Shown: positions 40,867 through 46,597 of the stretch, piece by piece
Layout: each line of letters starts with the position of its first letter
Position numbering within the stretch: the stretch's first letter is position 1
Assembly: GCA_026415695.1 (NCBI GenBank)
Contig: JAOAGP010000090.1
Location: 1-64,000, forward strand
Direction: 5' to 3'
Origin: Thermodesulfovibrionales bacterium
GTDB lineage: Bacteria; Nitrospirota; Thermodesulfovibrionia; Thermodesulfovibrionales; Dissulfurispiraceae
DNA: 64,000 nucleotides
Position numbers and translations under genes: made by a program
The notes under the pieces: generated by a model
Told to the model about the DNA's origin: nothing
Database searches by the model: none
The model's input: only the letters and a program-made list of their open reading frames with translations

Positions 40867-42465
40867 ATGATTATGAAAGTCGCAAATCTCAAACTTAGCA
40901 CCAAGTTTTCCCTTGCTGTTGGAGTTATTCTCTTACTCTTTTGCACGACCTTTTCTATTATCCTTTACTATTATCTTAAAAATCAGGTTTTAACCGATGC
41001 AGAAGAGAAGACCATGATAATTATGAGTCAGATTAGATCAGTAGGTGCTTATGTGAGGGAAACATTAAGACCAGCAATGTTTGAGACCCTATCCAAATTT
41101 GGAGCAAGTGATAAAATTATCATAGAAGCTATGTCCACTACACATGTAAGTCTTCAGGTTATGGCGAGGTTTAAAAAAGAGGTTGAAGACTACGGTTTTG
41201 CAAGGGTTTCTGAAAATCCTATGAACCCAAATAACAAGGCTGACGACTTTCACCTTGCTATGATCAATTATTTTAGCAGAAACAAGAATGAAAAACTTTG
41301 GAAAGGTATCATAAATACAGAGGAAGGCAAACGACTCTTTACCGTTAGACCAATAATCATGGAGTATGAATGTCTTAGATGTCATGGCAACCCTCATGAT
41401 GCACCGAAAGAATTATTAGTTAAATACGGCACTTCAGGTGGTTTTTACAGAAAGGTAGGGGATGTCATAGGCGTTGAATCAGTTTCGTATGTTTTAGATA
41501 GGGATTTGGCAAATGTAAAAAGGATTGCATTTGATACCTTCTTTTTTGGACTGTCAACATTGGGGATATTGTTTTTGGCTTTACAATCAACCTTTGTTCA
41601 CCTCGTAACTAAACCATTAAACAATCTTGCAAGGACATTCAAAGATATTGTTGAAGGCAAAGAAAAACTTGGCAGTGAAATACCAAGTAGTAGAACGGAT
41701 GAAATAGGTGAGTTGACTAATTCATTTAATATTTTGTCACGACATCTCTATGAGGCAGAAGAAAAACTAAAAAAGGCTGCTACATTGGAAAAGCAGATGA
41801 TGGAAACCGAAAAACTTGCCTCTCTTGGACAACTATCTGCTGGCATCGCACATGAAATCAACAATCCTTTAGGGGGGATGAGATTGTGCTTTAACAATCT
41901 TATTGAGTCTAATATGGATGAACAGAGCAGACAATTACACATCTCAACAATAAATTCTGGGTTTGACAGGATACAAAGGATCACTAAGCAGTTGTTGGAT
42001 TTTGCAAAGGGTTCACCCTTAAGTATGAAGATGATTTCTATATGTAAGGTTATGGACAATGTCTTGCAACTGTCAAGTTATCTAATATCAAAAAAATCAC
42101 TGAAAATAGTCAAGGAGTTTGATGAAAACATCCCACTAATCAATGCAGACAGTAACAAATTAGAACAGGTATTTTTAAACTTGATAATCAATGCAATACA
42201 CGCAACTGACACACAAGGTATCATTACTGTTAGATGCTGGAAGGAAGACAACTATTGTTTTGTCTCGGTCTCTGATACCGGTAAGGGTATCCCTGAAGGT
42301 ATTAGGTCAAAGATATTTGATCCGTTTTTTACTACAAAAGGTGTTGAACAGGGAACTGGTCTTGGTCTAACAGTAGCAAAATCTATCATTGAGCAGCATA
42401 AAGGTGATATTACCTTTGAGACATCTGAAAAGGGCACCACTTTCTTTGTAAAACTTCCAATATAA
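40867..42465 (+). CDS. Heme-c-binding (Tll0287/DUF3365-type) sensor histidine kinase of the selenoprotein module
   Basis: A 532-residue kinase. Helices at about residues 14-36 and 222-244 enclose a periplasmic Tll0287-like domain with one heme-c site, Cys169-x2-Cys172-His173 (CLRCHGNPHD). HAMP (about 245-300), a coiled coil, HisKA (His329 in GIAHEINNPLGG) and HATPase_c (GTGLGLTVAKSIIEQH) follow. The kinase part is NtrB/ZraS-like, which suits its partner, the sigma-54 activator that starts at its last base (TAATG). An ATG two codons in is an alternative start. The heme probably senses redox state or a small ligand; the signal is inference. Confidence 0.87.
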   Translation: MIMKVANLKLSTKFSLAVGVILLLFCTTFSIILYYYLKNQVLTDAEEKTMIIMSQIRSVGAYVRETLRPAMFETLSKFGASDKIIIEAMSTTHVSLQVMARFKKEVEDYGFARVSENPMNPNNKADDFHLAMINYFSRNKNEKLWKGIINTEEGKRLFTVRPIIMEYECLRCHGNPHDAPKELLVKYGTSGGFYRKVGDVIGVESVSYVLDRDLANVKRIAFDTFFFGLSTLGILFLALQSTFVHLVTKPLNNLARTFKDIVEGKEKLGSEIPSSRTDEIGELTNSFNILSRHLYEAEEKLKKAATLEKQMMETEKLASLGQLSAGIAHEINNPLGGMRLCFNNLIESNMDEQSRQLHISTINSGFDRIQRITKQLLDFAKGSPLSMKMISICKVMDNVLQLSSYLISKKSLKIVKEFDENIPLINADSNKLEQVFLNLIINAIHATDTQGIITVRCWKEDNYCFVSVSDTGKGIPEGIRSKIFDPFFTTKGVEQGTGLGLTVAKSIIEQHKGDITFETSEKGTTFFVKLPI

Positions 42466-43859
42466 TGGCTAAACAAATACTCATAGTTGAAGATGACCCT
42501 ATCATGAGGCTCGGTATGGAGCATTTCTTGAGGTCTCGTGGATATGAGATAATGACATGCACAGACGGCAAGGAAGCCATTGAATTAATTGATAAAATGT
42601 CTTTTGACATCATTATCTCTGATCTAAAGATGCCTTACTATGACGGTTTTGAGGTGCTAAAAAGGGCAAAAAGTGTTCAGCCGCATGCATATTTCATTAT
42701 TATCACGGCATATGCAGATATTAAAGATGCTGTAGAGGCGATAAGACAAGGTGCTTTTGACTACATTGCAAAACCTTTTTCAAACGAGGAGTTGTTGATT
42801 GCAATAGAAAAATGTCTTCACTTCCAAAAACTTGAAAATGAGATTTCCCAACTTAAAGAAACCCTTAAAGAAAAGGTTGTGTTTGAAAACATCATAGGGG
42901 TAAGTCCGCAGATGCAACAGGTATTTAAGCAGATATCCTCTGTGGCAGTTACAGATGCACCTGTTTTGATACAAGGACAGAGTGGCACAGGTAAGGAACT
43001 TGTTGCCAATGCAATACACAATCTAAGTAAGAGGGCAGATAAGATTTTAGTGAAGATTAACTGTGCTGCTATTCCTGAAAACCTGTTTGAATCCGAACTA
43101 TTTGGGTATGAAAGGGGTGCCTTTACAGGTGCTACTAAAACAAAGATTGGAAAGATTGAATATGCCCATGAAGGCACAATATTTTTTGATGAAATAGGCG
43201 ATATCCCCCTTTTTTTACAACCAAAGTTATTAAGGCTCCTTGAGGATCATTCTATCACAAGGTTAGGAGATAACAGAGAGATAAAGGTTGACATCAGGAT
43301 GATATATGCAACAAGTAAAAACCTAAAAGACCTCGTTTCTAAAGGTTTGTTTAGAGAAGACCTTTTTTATAGGATAAATATCGTCCCTATAACCCTACCA
43401 CCTTTAAAAGAACGCACTGAGGATATACCTTATTTGGTTGACTACTTTTTAAGGCAATTTTGTAAAAAATTCAATAAGCCTAATCTAAAGATATCCCCAC
43501 ATGCCTTTGATGTGTTGATGTCTTACAGTTATCCCGGTAATGTAAGGGAACTAAAACATGCAATAGAAAGAGCCGTTATACTTGCCCAATCAGATACAAT
43601 AAATGTGCAAGACCTACCTCAAGAGATGAGGATAACGGGTAATATTGAAGCATCATGTATGTCTGAGCATATACCTCTTGAGCAAAGCATCAAGTGTTTT
43701 GAAAAGCAAAAGATAATAATAGCATTAAGAGAAACAGGTGGTAAAAAGATAGAGGCTGCAAAACTACTTGGTATAAGCAGAAAGGTCTTGTGGTCAAAGA
43801 TAAAAGAGTATGGTATAGATGAGTTCTTCAGCCTTTCTCAGCAATTAGAAGAAGACTGA
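42465..43859 (+). CDS. NtrC-type sigma-54 activator of the selenoprotein module
   Basis: A 464-residue regulator: receiver with Asp53 (IIISDLKMPYYDG), AAA+ domain with GQSGTGKE Walker A, GAFTGA loop (GYERGAFTGATK) and DEIGDIPLF, then a Fis-type HTH (AAKLLGISRKVLWSKIKEYG). It is translationally coupled to the heme-c kinase. The next 120 bp hold two matching palindromes and a sigma-54 promoter for the selenoprotein-transporter genes, so its target is very likely that operon. Confidence 0.9.
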   Translation: MAKQILIVEDDPIMRLGMEHFLRSRGYEIMTCTDGKEAIELIDKMSFDIIISDLKMPYYDGFEVLKRAKSVQPHAYFIIITAYADIKDAVEAIRQGAFDYIAKPFSNEELLIAIEKCLHFQKLENEISQLKETLKEKVVFENIIGVSPQMQQVFKQISSVAVTDAPVLIQGQSGTGKELVANAIHNLSKRADKILVKINCAAIPENLFESELFGYERGAFTGATKTKIGKIEYAHEGTIFFDEIGDIPLFLQPKLLRLLEDHSITRLGDNREIKVDIRMIYATSKNLKDLVSKGLFREDLFYRINIVPITLPPLKERTEDIPYLVDYFLRQFCKKFNKPNLKISPHAFDVLMSYSYPGNVRELKHAIERAVILAQSDTINVQDLPQEMRITGNIEASCMSEHIPLEQSIKCFEKQKIIIALRETGGKKIEAAKLLGISRKVLWSKIKEYGIDEFFSLSQQLEED

Positions 43860-43874
43860 TTCCCTATCCTGATT

Positions 43875-43925
43875 TGTTACCATTTCGTAACATAAAAAGA
43901 TATCTGATGTTACTCGTTGGTATCA
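43875..43925 (+). promoter_or_regulatory. Tandem palindromic enhancer sites (TGTTAC-N6-GTAACA)
   Basis: Site 1 (43875-43892) is a perfect TGTTAC-N6-GTAACA. Site 2 (43908-43925) is TGTTAC-N6-GTATCA, with one mismatch. Their centres are 33 bp apart, close to three helical turns, and they lie about 55-105 bp upstream of the -24 element. That is the usual layout of NtrC-type activator sites. The activator gene ends 15 bp before site 1. Confidence 0.7.
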
Positions 43926-43977
43926 TTCCCTCTACATCTGATGTCTTAAAACCAAAATAAAACAGAGAGATATGTAT

Positions 43978-43995
43978 TAGGTATTGCTTTTGCAT
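43978..43995 (+). promoter_or_regulatory. Sigma-54 (-24/-12) promoter of the selenorhodanese operon
   Basis: TTAGGTATTGCTTTTGCA has GG at 43980-43981 and GC at 43992-43993, separated by exactly 10 nt, with the TTTGCA box typical of -12. The transcript would start near 44005 and include the GGAGGAGG ribosome binding site before the ATG at 44034. Confidence 0.78.
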
Positions 43996-44033: not shown

Positions 44034-44513
44034 ATGAAAAGACTGTTTGTGTGTTTAGTTGTAGGGTTGTTTGTTTTGGGTCTTTTGGGTGTGGCAAATG
44101 CTCAATGGCCACCTGATGTGATGGCAAAGGTCAAGCAGTACAAGGAATTGGCAGATCAGAAAAAAGACATGCCTAAAACTATTGAGGGTGTTAACTTGAT
44201 CACCGGTAAGGAACTGAAAAAATGGATGGATCAGAAAAAGCAATTTATCTTAGTTGACAACAGGGTGAAAGAACAATATGATGCTGAGAGGATTAAGGGT
44301 GCAAAGTGGTTTTTAGCAGATCATCTACTTGCAGACCCCAAAATGGCTGATCAGTTCAAAAAGGATGATGTCATAGTCTTTTATTGAAACGGCGTTCAGT
44401 GCTGGAGGTCTCCAGCAGCAGTTGTAATGATGAAACACCTTGGCTACAAGAATCTCTACTGGTATAGAGAAGGACTACCAGATTGGAAAAAGGAAAAGTT
44501 CCCTACTGAATAA
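44034..44513 (+). CDS. Exported rhodanese-like selenoprotein (Sec118 encoded by TGA)
   Basis: Reading the TGA at 44385-44387 as selenocysteine gives 159 residues ending at TAA 44511-44513. Signal peptide 1-23 (cleavage after ANA) puts it in the periplasm. The rhodanese fold is clear: FILVDNRVKEQYDAERIKGA, a helix, VIVFY, then Sec-N-G-V-Q-Cys as the active-site loop, WRSPAAVVMMKHLGYKN and a last LYWYREGLPDWK. Other rhodaneses have the catalytic Cys exactly where TGA stands (pattern VFYCNGxxC). The loop would hold Sec118 and Cys123. A SECIS-like hairpin follows 12 nt after TGA. Without recoding the protein would stop just before its active site. It is the first gene after the sigma-54 promoter. 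Confidence 0.87.
44385..44417 (+). promoter_or_regulatory. Sec codon and bacterial SECIS-like hairpin
   Basis: After TGA (44385-44387), TGCTGG (44400-44405) and CCAGCA (44412-44417) pair perfectly around the loop AGGTCT (44406-44411). The loop begins 18 nt after TGA. Bacterial SECIS elements are short hairpins with a GGU-containing apical loop at this distance; from memory the loop of E. coli fdhF is the same hexanucleotide with a 17-nt spacing. Confidence 0.82.
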
Positions 44514-44598: not shown

Positions 44599-44763
44599 AT
44601 GGCAGAAGACAAGGCAAGTAAAGAATGGGAGGAAAAGGCAAAAAGTACCTTTTCAGCAGAGCGCAAAGAAGATTTCGTGGTGTTGGTGTTAGCTGCAATA
44701 ACTGTTGTATTGGTGATGACTGGTGCAATTGGACCAAACTTTTTTAAATCACTATTCTTTTAA
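44599..44763 (+). CDS. 54-residue single-helix membrane protein
   Basis: ATG at 44599, 7 nt after GGAGG, with a stop at 44761-44763. The first 27 residues are charged and helical (KEWEEKAKSTFSAERKED); then comes one membrane helix of about 20 residues (FVVLVLAAITVVLVMTG) and a short AIGPNFFKSLFF tail. The orientation by charge is N-in. It is placed 15 bp before the YeiH-type transporter with its own good ribosome binding site, which suggests an accessory subunit of the transporter. I do not recognise the family. Confidence 0.75.
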   Translation: MAEDKASKEWEEKAKSTFSAERKEDFVVLVLAAITVVLVMTGAIGPNFFKSLFF

Positions 44764-44778
44764 ATGGAGGGATAAAAC

Positions 44779-46107
44779 ATGGGAAGTGGTGGAGGAATTG
44801 GTGTATCCTATGAATTAAAGAACCTACCTGCAATGCTACCAGGGTTGATATTGTGTATCTTCCTTGGCTGGCTTGCACTTCAATGGGACCACACGATGAG
44901 TGAATATAGAAGGGCATATGGAGAGGCAAAGAATATCTTAAAACCATTTCAAGAACTTGGAAAGCCTATACCAACTTATGAAGAATATAAGGCGAAGAAG
45001 GAGGATGCTTATAAAGGGGCTATGACCCTTTTTCAGATGGGTATAGAAAAAAAGAAACCTTCAAAACCTTATATGTTGCAAAAAGAAGACTATGATTATG
45101 TTGCAACAAATAAAGACATACCGACAAAATTTGTTTTAGGGGAAAGGGTAAATCAATTTCAACTTACTTATGTTGCCGTGCTACTTTTAGGTGGCATGTT
45201 GATAAGAAATACTGTTGGTGTTCCAAAGATATTTCAGGCTGGAACTGTTGCAGCAAGACCACTAATTAAACCGGGTATTATTATCCTTGGTGCATACTAC
45301 ATGTGGTCTGATGTTTTAAAGGTTGGTGCGATTGGGCTCTTTCTTGTTGTGTTGTTCGTTTTAGGAACTCAAATAATGATATCTGTTTGGGGTAGAAGAT
45401 CTAATGTGGATGATGGACTTTCAGGATTAATGGGTGCTGGAGTGGGTGTATGTGGTGTGTCAGCCGCTGTGGCAGCTGCACCTGTTGTAAATGCAAAACC
45501 CAGAGACTTCTTTTATGCAATAGGCACGATACTATTATTTGGAACGCTTTGTCTGTTTACATTCCCATACATTGGAAAGGCGCTTGGAATGAGCCAGCCG
45601 ATATTTGGTGCATGGTGTGGGACTGCTATTTTAAATACTGCCCAACTTGTAGCAGCAGCTTCATGGTATGGTCATGAGGCACTTCTTACAGCAAATATAA
45701 TCAATATTGTTAGGGTAGGTTTTATACCAATAATCGTTATGTGGGCAATCTACTACTATGTTATCAGACCTGCTAAACAAGCAACCGGTGAGGCTCAAAA
45801 ACTCAACGCTTGGCAGGTTATCAAGGAAAAATTCCCCATATTTGTATTTGGATTTTTCATAATGGTTACCTTAAACGAGGCAGGGTTTTTCACGAAGGAT
45901 CAGGCAAGGATACTCGGTAGCGACTTGCTAAAGATTTGGTTTGCAATTGGCTTTGCAGGGGTTGGTCTTAATATTGCGTTTGATGATTTAAGAAAGGCAG
46001 GAGGTAAGGCATTTGTAATAGGTTTCTCATCAGCATTATTAAAGGCAGTACTGTCAGCTGCCGTAATTATGGCAATTGGTGAAGAAGTATTTAAGGTAAA
46101 AGGATAA
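44779..46107 (+). CDS. YeiH-type (UPF0324) putative sulfate/sulfite exporter
   Basis: A 442-residue membrane protein with about ten helices. The family signature GVGVCGVSAAVAAAPVVNAK lies near residue 230, followed by FGAWCGTAILNTAQLVAAAS and a late NIAFDDLRKAGGKAF. Proteins of this family (PF03601, E. coli YeiH) are annotated as putative sulfate exporters; transport has rarely been tested. It differs from YeiH by a long hydrophilic insert after the first helix (about residues 40-125, including a lysine-rich KKEDAYKG part). Co-transcription with an exported Sec-rhodanese supports a sulfur compound as substrate; that is inference. A strong terminator follows. Confidence 0.83.
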   Translation: MGSGGGIGVSYELKNLPAMLPGLILCIFLGWLALQWDHTMSEYRRAYGEAKNILKPFQELGKPIPTYEEYKAKKEDAYKGAMTLFQMGIEKKKPSKPYMLQKEDYDYVATNKDIPTKFVLGERVNQFQLTYVAVLLLGGMLIRNTVGVPKIFQAGTVAARPLIKPGIIILGAYYMWSDVLKVGAIGLFLVVLFVLGTQIMISVWGRRSNVDDGLSGLMGAGVGVCGVSAAVAAAPVVNAKPRDFFYAIGTILLFGTLCLFTFPYIGKALGMSQPIFGAWCGTAILNTAQLVAAASWYGHEALLTANIINIVRVGFIPIIVMWAIYYYVIRPAKQATGEAQKLNAWQVIKEKFPIFVFGFFIMVTLNEAGFFTKDQARILGSDLLKIWFAIGFAGVGLNIAFDDLRKAGGKAFVIGFSSALLKAVLSAAVIMAIGEEVFKVKG

Positions 46108-46153: not shown

Positions 46154-46597
46154 ATGAAAAAAATCCTACTCTGCACAGATAACGAACCTCAAAGCCAAAG
46201 GGCTGAAGACTGTGCAATATTAATTGCCAAGGCACTCTCCTATGAGATAACTGCAATTCATGTCGTGGATCCCTTCCTAAAAAAATTTACTAATGAAATC
46301 TATGCAGTCAATAGGGATGAGTGCAGACTATATCTTGATAGGGAATTAACAAATGAGGGGGAAATAGCCCTTAAAAGATTTTTTGATAAGTCAAATCTTG
46401 AAGGTTTGCAAACGACAATCATCTTGAAAAATGGAGACCCTGAAGAGATTATAATGTCAGAGATACAGACTAATGAATACGAGTTTTTGGTAATGGGTGC
46501 AAAGTTACTGAAAGGGTGGAAGGAAAGATTTGAATCCTACAAACTGTCAGAGAGAATCTTTAAAAAGTCACCAATTTCAATGATATTTGTAAGATAG
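46154..46597 (+). CDS. Universal stress protein, degenerate nucleotide site
   Basis: A 147-residue USP-fold protein: KKILLCTDNEPQSQRAEDCA at the start, ITAIHVVDP, a GDPEEIIM motif and VMGAKLLKGW near the end. The G-x2-G-x9-G-S signature of ATP-binding members is missing, so it is probably non-ATP-binding. It starts 6 bp after the terminator of the selenorhodanese operon and overlaps the next gene by one base. Confidence 0.78.
   Translation: MKKILLCTDNEPQSQRAEDCAILIAKALSYEITAIHVVDPFLKKFTNEIYAVNRDECRLYLDRELTNEGEIALKRFFDKSNLEGLQTTIILKNGDPEEIIMSEIQTNEYEFLVMGAKLLKGWKERFESYKLSERIFKKSPISMIFVR

Follow-up and report, generated by a model that had tools for sequence, protein, structure and literature searches.

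A predicted exported selenocysteine-containing rhodanese encoded near a YeiH-type transporter gene in a Nitrospirota genome

Results

A rhodanese gene with an in-frame TGA codon

The window, i.e. the whole stretch of 64,000 nucleotides that was analysed, belongs to a Thermodesulfovibrionales-related Nitrospirota MAG (2.2 Mb draft, 123 contigs, 99.7% complete). It contains a gene whose ATG start codon is preceded by a ribosome-binding-like site, GGAGGA, and whose reading frame includes a single TGA at the position of the catalytic Cys of rhodaneses. The features of this locus are summarized in Table 1. When the TGA is read as selenocysteine (Sec), translation proceeds for 159 residues up to the TAA, and the sequence around the TGA is FY-U-NGVQ-C-WRS (Sec-N-G-V-Q-Cys-W-R-S). 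An annotation pipeline that lacks a selenoprotein step would likely name the product a truncated 117-aa protein.

Table 1. Positions of genes and sequence features at the predicted Sec-rhodanese locus (coordinates of the window)
Feature	Position	Strand	Basis or remark
Sensor histidine kinase, Tll0287-like domain with CLRCH (c-haem type motif)	40867..42465	+	Conserved neighbour in close relatives
Sigma-54-dependent response regulator	42465..43859	+	Profile match; conserved neighbour
Pair of palindromes (TGTTACCATTTCGTAACA, TGTTACTCGTTGGTATCA) at a distance of 33 bp, probably bound by a regulator	43875..43926	+	TGTTAC-N6-GTAACA type
GG-N10-GC sigma-54-like -24/-12 site, weak match	43980..43993	+	
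Sec-rhodanese gene (predicted)	44034..44513	+	159 aa, Sec118, TAA stop; 33-member family alignment
Putative signal peptide coding part (MKRLFVCLVVGLFVLGLLGVANA, residues 1-23, probable cleavage ANA/Q)	44034..44102	+	Sequence; hydrophobic N-terminus in family
UGA codon for selenocysteine (predicted), residue 118	44385..44387	+	Opens rhodanese active-site loop
TGC codon, invariant Cys123 (Sec-x4-Cys)	44400..44402	+	Kept in 33/33 family members
Putative bacterial SECIS apical hairpin, TGCTGG-AGGTCT-CCAGCA	44400..44417	+	Fits published model (PMC13188914)
54-aa single-TM protein, conserved neighbour	44599..44763	+	tblastn in 6 related genomes
Transporter of the YeiH family (PF03601/TIGR00698), putatively for sulfite export	44779..46107	+	Profile match, linkage
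Universal stress protein, conserved neighbour	46154..46597	+	Profile match

The Pfam rhodanese domain (PF00581) was matched across the TGA, from residue 59 to residue 154, with 57.6 bits compared to a cut-off of 22.2. Downstream of the TGA the frame is conserved, and it stops at the usual C-terminus of the family. The initial annotation had placed the TGA at the expected active-site Cys of a rhodanese and had proposed that the frame continues as rhodanese up to the TAA. The first point was confirmed by the domain match across the TGA and by the Cys codon of 29 homologues, and the second by the matched residues and by coding-type differences downstream.

Exchange of Sec and Cys in the family

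Relatives were searched in 150 genomes of the class and 396 genomes of the phylum, and a well-defined subfamily of the same architecture was recovered. In the window gene and its relatives the codon in question was TGA in 9 genes and a Cys codon (TGC or TGT) in 29 genes, and another residue was found in none. The eight further TGA genes are L024, L031, L035, L037, L038, L039, L082, and L084. Homologues with Cys at the identical codon had been named as a check in the initial annotation, and they are represented by the 29 genes. In the 33 rows of the alignment the Cys at +5, Ser126, Gly137, Gly147, and Trp151 were invariant, and the Asp and Arg residues of the rhodanese fold were conserved.

The differences between the genes after the TGA were found mostly at third codon positions, e.g. 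the pair L037 and L038 differed at 2, 0, and 19 sites of codon positions 1, 2, and 3, respectively. By this pattern, the stretch after the TGA evolves as coding DNA. In a maximum-likelihood tree Sec genes and Cys genes were interleaved, the well-supported branches forced at least four changes, and the window gene clustered with two Cys genes (support 100/98). A single Sec clade, in which the seven Sec genes on the tree were held together, was rejected with a p-AU of 0.0003. Together, the coding constraint after the TGA and the interleaving of Sec and Cys forms are a strong argument against a chance stop codon or gene decay. These related forms are, in addition, natural pairs for testing the benefit of selenium for an extracytoplasmic sulfurtransferase. 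Two further genomes from this genus lacked a close relative of the gene, and a tblastn search of PLSDB yielded distant rhodaneses only.

Selenocysteine machinery and further candidate selenoprotein genes

The initial annotation had proposed searching the same genome for selA to selD. All four genes were found with scores above the curated cut-offs, i.e. the tRNA-Sec gene selC with 71 bits, selA with 614 bits, selB with 381 bits, and selD with 326 bits, and the selB match covered positions 1-578 of 581. The selD gene (L056, contig C56) itself contains an in-frame TGA near the N-terminus (SAG-U-AGKL), so that the selenophosphate synthetase of this genome is probably also a selenoprotein. A further in-frame TGA was found on contig C75 in a gene on the minus strand (L045:401-1756), which encodes a 452-aa triple-rhodanese with a signal peptide. 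Its TGA is located at the second active-site position (YCMGPT-U-RLSP), a mirror image of the window protein. The sequence U-R-L-S of the triple-rhodanese represents the UxxS motif of the catalogued form 1; in size the protein resembles the 49-kDa ExtH of Geobacter (PMC5877670). The TGA codons of selD and of the triple-rhodanese gene therefore indicate that several genes of this genome require Sec decoding.

Among 32 genomes of relatives that were checked, selA was present in 30, which indicates that the Sec and the Cys form both live in selenium-using genomes. In the other two drafts selB was detected and selA was not; one of them carries the Cys form (G043) and the other the TGA form (G347, a MAG that is 95% complete). 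The TGA gene of the latter, L082, has the weakest hairpin of the nine.

A SECIS-type hairpin downstream of the TGA

A hairpin starts 12 nt past the TGA, and its AGGTCT loop is reached after 18 nt. The stem can be drawn with 7 bp and the loop GGTC, or with 6 bp and the loop AGGTCT, at a distance of 18-19 nt from the UGA. The published model for bacterial SECIS elements comprises a stem of 4-16 bp, a loop of 3-9 nt, a G in the first two loop positions, and a distance of 16-37 nt from the UGA (PMC13188914), and the hairpin lies within all of these limits. This agrees with the form and spacing of a bacterial SECIS element that had been claimed in the initial annotation. The SECIS element of E. coli fdhF has the same AGGTCT apical loop, 17 nt after the TGA versus 18 nt here, whereas the stem sequence differs. 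An Rfam search over the region returned no match to a SECIS family, and only chance hits were obtained.

Taken alone, the fold of the hairpin is unremarkable (z -1.5 compared to dinucleotide shuffles), because the protein motif CWRSPA partly encodes the hairpin. Synonymous-codon shuffles folded equally well in 3% of the cases for the window gene and in up to 13% for other Sec genes. Several Cys genes have retained a similar stem. The Arg/Lys codon had a final G in 9 of 9 Sec genes, compared to 6 of the 29 Cys genes (Fisher p 3e-5). A SECIS-type loop on a stem of 6 bp or more was present in 8 of 9 versus 5 of 29 (p 2e-4). Both p-values are uncorrected for kinship. On the basis of these sequences, it is the loop that tells the two groups apart. 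As the hairpin is weak by itself, the case for Sec rests on the nine TGA and 29 Cys codons at one site and on selA to selD.

One Cys-form relative, L083, has kept a perfect SECIS-type hairpin (TGCTGGA-AGTC-TCCAGCA), and this retention suggests that the gene may have changed from Sec to Cys recently.

The TGA could also be a real stop codon or a sequencing or assembly error, so that the gene would be a decaying pseudogene or would encode only the 117-aa protein, and the hairpin would be a by-product of the CWRSPA motif. The hairpin beats synonymous shuffles only modestly, the assembly is still a 123-contig draft, and a second sequence from this species was not found, all of which would be in line with this explanation. 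However, the TGA is present at the same codon in eight other genomes, a recurrence not expected from chance or error, and the alternative is always Cys. In addition, the frame past the TGA is conserved up to the usual C-terminus, and selA to selD are present in the genome. Because the TGA recurs at this codon and the frame behind it is constrained, the pseudogene or error explanation was rejected, and we regard it as highly improbable. Very probably, therefore, the gene encodes a genuine selenoprotein, an exported Sec-containing rhodanese.

Predicted export and structure

Residues 1-23 look, by eye, like a Sec/SPI signal peptide with an n-region, a hydrophobic core, and an A-x-A site, and an N-terminal hydrophobic stretch is present in nearly all family members of the alignment. 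From this signal peptide we infer that the Sec-rhodanese is exported to the periplasm. The initial annotation had proposed a periplasmic Sec-sulfurtransferase with a Sec-x4-Cys redox pair. The putative signal peptide and the invariant Cys at +5 support this proposal, with export and the redox pair being its predicted parts. The additional statement that an exported Sec protein would be unusual was exaggerated. Predicted exported selenoproteins, namely a DsbA-like, a DsbG-like, and a "secreted serine protease" selenoprotein, have already been catalogued, and the triple-rhodanese of contig C75 is a second TGA-containing rhodanese with a signal peptide in the same genome. DsbA and DsbG function outside the cytoplasm.

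An AlphaFold2 model based on the 33-row alignment had a mean pLDDT of 91, which rose to about 98 in the region of residue 118. In the model a strand comprising residues 113-117 has Tyr117 as its last residue, the active-site loop starts with residue 118, and residues 125-135 form a helix. Residue 118 thus occupies the catalytic position of rhodaneses in the predicted structure. The Foldseek matches in the PDB were rhodaneses, including the polysulfide-sulfur transferase Sud of Wolinella (1qxn; E 1.5e-5, 17% identity). Sud, a periplasmic sulfur carrier, shares the rhodanese fold, but is a Cys enzyme and a homodimer.

Comparison with known Sec-rhodaneses

Sec-containing sulfurtransferases were described earlier from the Sargasso and GOS surveys, and catalogued forms have been reported (PMC9312934, PMC1088965). 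A 2026 review lists five forms of Sec-rhodaneses, with the motifs UxxS, UxxG, CxU, UxxG, and U-x4-U (PMC13188914). In common with forms 1-4, the window protein contains Sec near the active site of a rhodanese domain and has widespread Cys homologues. It differs from them in its motif, U-N-G-x-x-C-W-R-S, with a loop longer than the canonical CxxGxR, and in being a single domain that is predicted to be exported and is linked to YeiH.

The best NCBIfam match was TsoB (NF045694, "form 5", U-x4-U), with 64.7 bits over residues 50-159. The spacing of the active-site positions is the same, but both are Sec in TsoB and only the first one is Sec in the window protein. Furthermore, TsoB resembles a rhodanese/DsbD fusion, whereas the window protein stands alone with 159 aa and has no DsbD-like part. 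Membership in this family was rejected, as the score is far below the cut-off of 805 bits and the protein stops after the rhodanese domain. The PQQ-dependent catabolism-associated CXXCW motif protein (TIGR03865) has the C-terminal half including the active site in common with the window protein (53.9 bits, residues 104-158), but contains Cys instead of Sec, and such an operon context is missing at the window gene. With a cut-off of 128.05 bits, this assignment was also rejected. The same is true for the LYCAU rhodanese (NF041203), with 45.3 bits versus a cut-off of 115 and the motif U-x4-C instead of CxU. The stand-alone U-x4-C form with predicted export is absent from the catalogued motifs of Sec-rhodaneses; it extends a known kind of selenoprotein and does not found a new one. 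It enlarges the short list of Sec-sulfurtransferases by a single-domain Sec-x4-Cys rhodanese, predicted to be exported, that has a YeiH-type transporter as a defined partner.

Linkage to a YeiH-type transporter gene

Nineteen related regions were compared. A YeiH-type gene was located no more than a few kb away in each of the 6 Sec regions and in 9 of 13 Cys regions, with a variable gene order. This linkage had not been part of the initial annotation. The YeiH-type neighbour in the window clearly exceeded the threshold for PF03601 with 173.5 bits, but with 76.8 bits stayed under the TIGR00698 cut-off of 232.6. As it is a divergent member of PF03601 below the TIGR00698 cut-off, its substrate is uncertain. 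In Hyphomicrobium denitrificans, YeiH has been described as probably exporting sulfite (PMC12423496). For the 54-aa protein encoded between the two genes, neither a Pfam nor an NCBIfam match was obtained.

In the remaining 4 of the 13 Cys regions examined, no YeiH neighbour was found. L072, a Cys-form relative that lacks a YeiH neighbour, is flanked on one side by a chemotaxis receptor gene and on the other by a molybdopterin oxidoreductase cluster that includes a solute-binding protein.

Proposed chemistry

According to the mechanism that we propose, SelB and tRNA-Sec would decode UGA codon 118 as Sec via the adjacent downstream SECIS hairpin. The single-domain rhodanese would be exported to the periplasm, where Sec would be the catalytic residue and the Cys five residues further on the resolving residue. 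The selenium at position 118 would most likely accept sulfane sulfur (Se-S-) and hand the sulfur to an acceptor, and Cys123 could free the bound sulfur by a selenenylsulfide bond with Sec118. Given the linkage to a YeiH-type gene, periplasmic sulfite or thiosulfate would be the likeliest acceptor or product. We consider sulfurtransferase chemistry to be fairly probable, whereas the link to sulfite is put forward only tentatively. A literature search on the chemistry of Sec-substituted rhodaneses found no paper.

Two other functions were considered for a Sec-containing product. Firstly, the protein might mainly be a thiol-disulfide or selenenylsulfide oxidoreductase, or be peroxidase-like, on a rhodanese fold. 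The invariant Cys five residues past the Sec would suit such a function, thiol oxidoreductases are the majority of selenoproteins, and in the related TsoB, which has the motif U-x4-U, a rhodanese is fused to DsbD. In addition, a gene for a MauE/DoxX-type membrane protein, a family linked to thiol redox, adjoins two of the Sec relatives. However, the rhodanese fold with its conserved Asp and Arg residues and the linkage to the sulfite exporter family favour the chemistry of sulfur compounds, and we regard a mainly oxidoreductase function as possible, but rather unlikely.

Secondly, the protein could serve selenium oxyanions or selenium delivery, i.e. periplasmic selenite detoxification, and not sulfur. 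The rhodanese ExtH is encoded in a selenite/tellurite cluster of Geobacter, in which the porin ExtI affects the reduction of selenite and tellurite (PMC5877670). In one relative a weak ExtJ-like match was found, and a TerC-family membrane protein is encoded near one Sec gene. Yet the ExtJ match is below the cut-off, and the window gene has YeiH as its conserved partner and no cytochrome or porin cluster around it. Such a function thus seems improbable, and sulfur transfer remains the preferred function.

In its widest form, the proposal would describe a selenium-dependent periplasmic sulfur module. It would consist of YeiH-type sulfite export and a co-inherited Sec-rhodanese that combines the sulfite with sulfane sulfur and so makes (or else cleaves) thiosulfate. 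In the lineage of the window genome, a haem-sensing kinase would control the module together with a sigma-54 regulator, and the catalytic position would have switched repeatedly between Cys and Sec. As a whole, this module is speculative, and we would rather doubt than assume that all of its parts apply.

Putative regulation by the adjacent two-component system

With its CLRCH motif, the histidine kinase with the Tll0287-like domain is possibly a periplasmic c-haem redox sensor. The GG-N10-GC site was not among the matches to the full sigma-54 consensus with up to three mismatches, a scan whose hits were near chance level. The palindromes and the GG-N10-GC site suggest, without proving it, that the adjacent two-component system may control the Sec-rhodanese gene. 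In the relative L010, a palindrome pair of the type TGTTCC-N6-GAAACA, 32 bp apart, is followed by a better -24/-12 site (positions 1852, 1884, and 1955).
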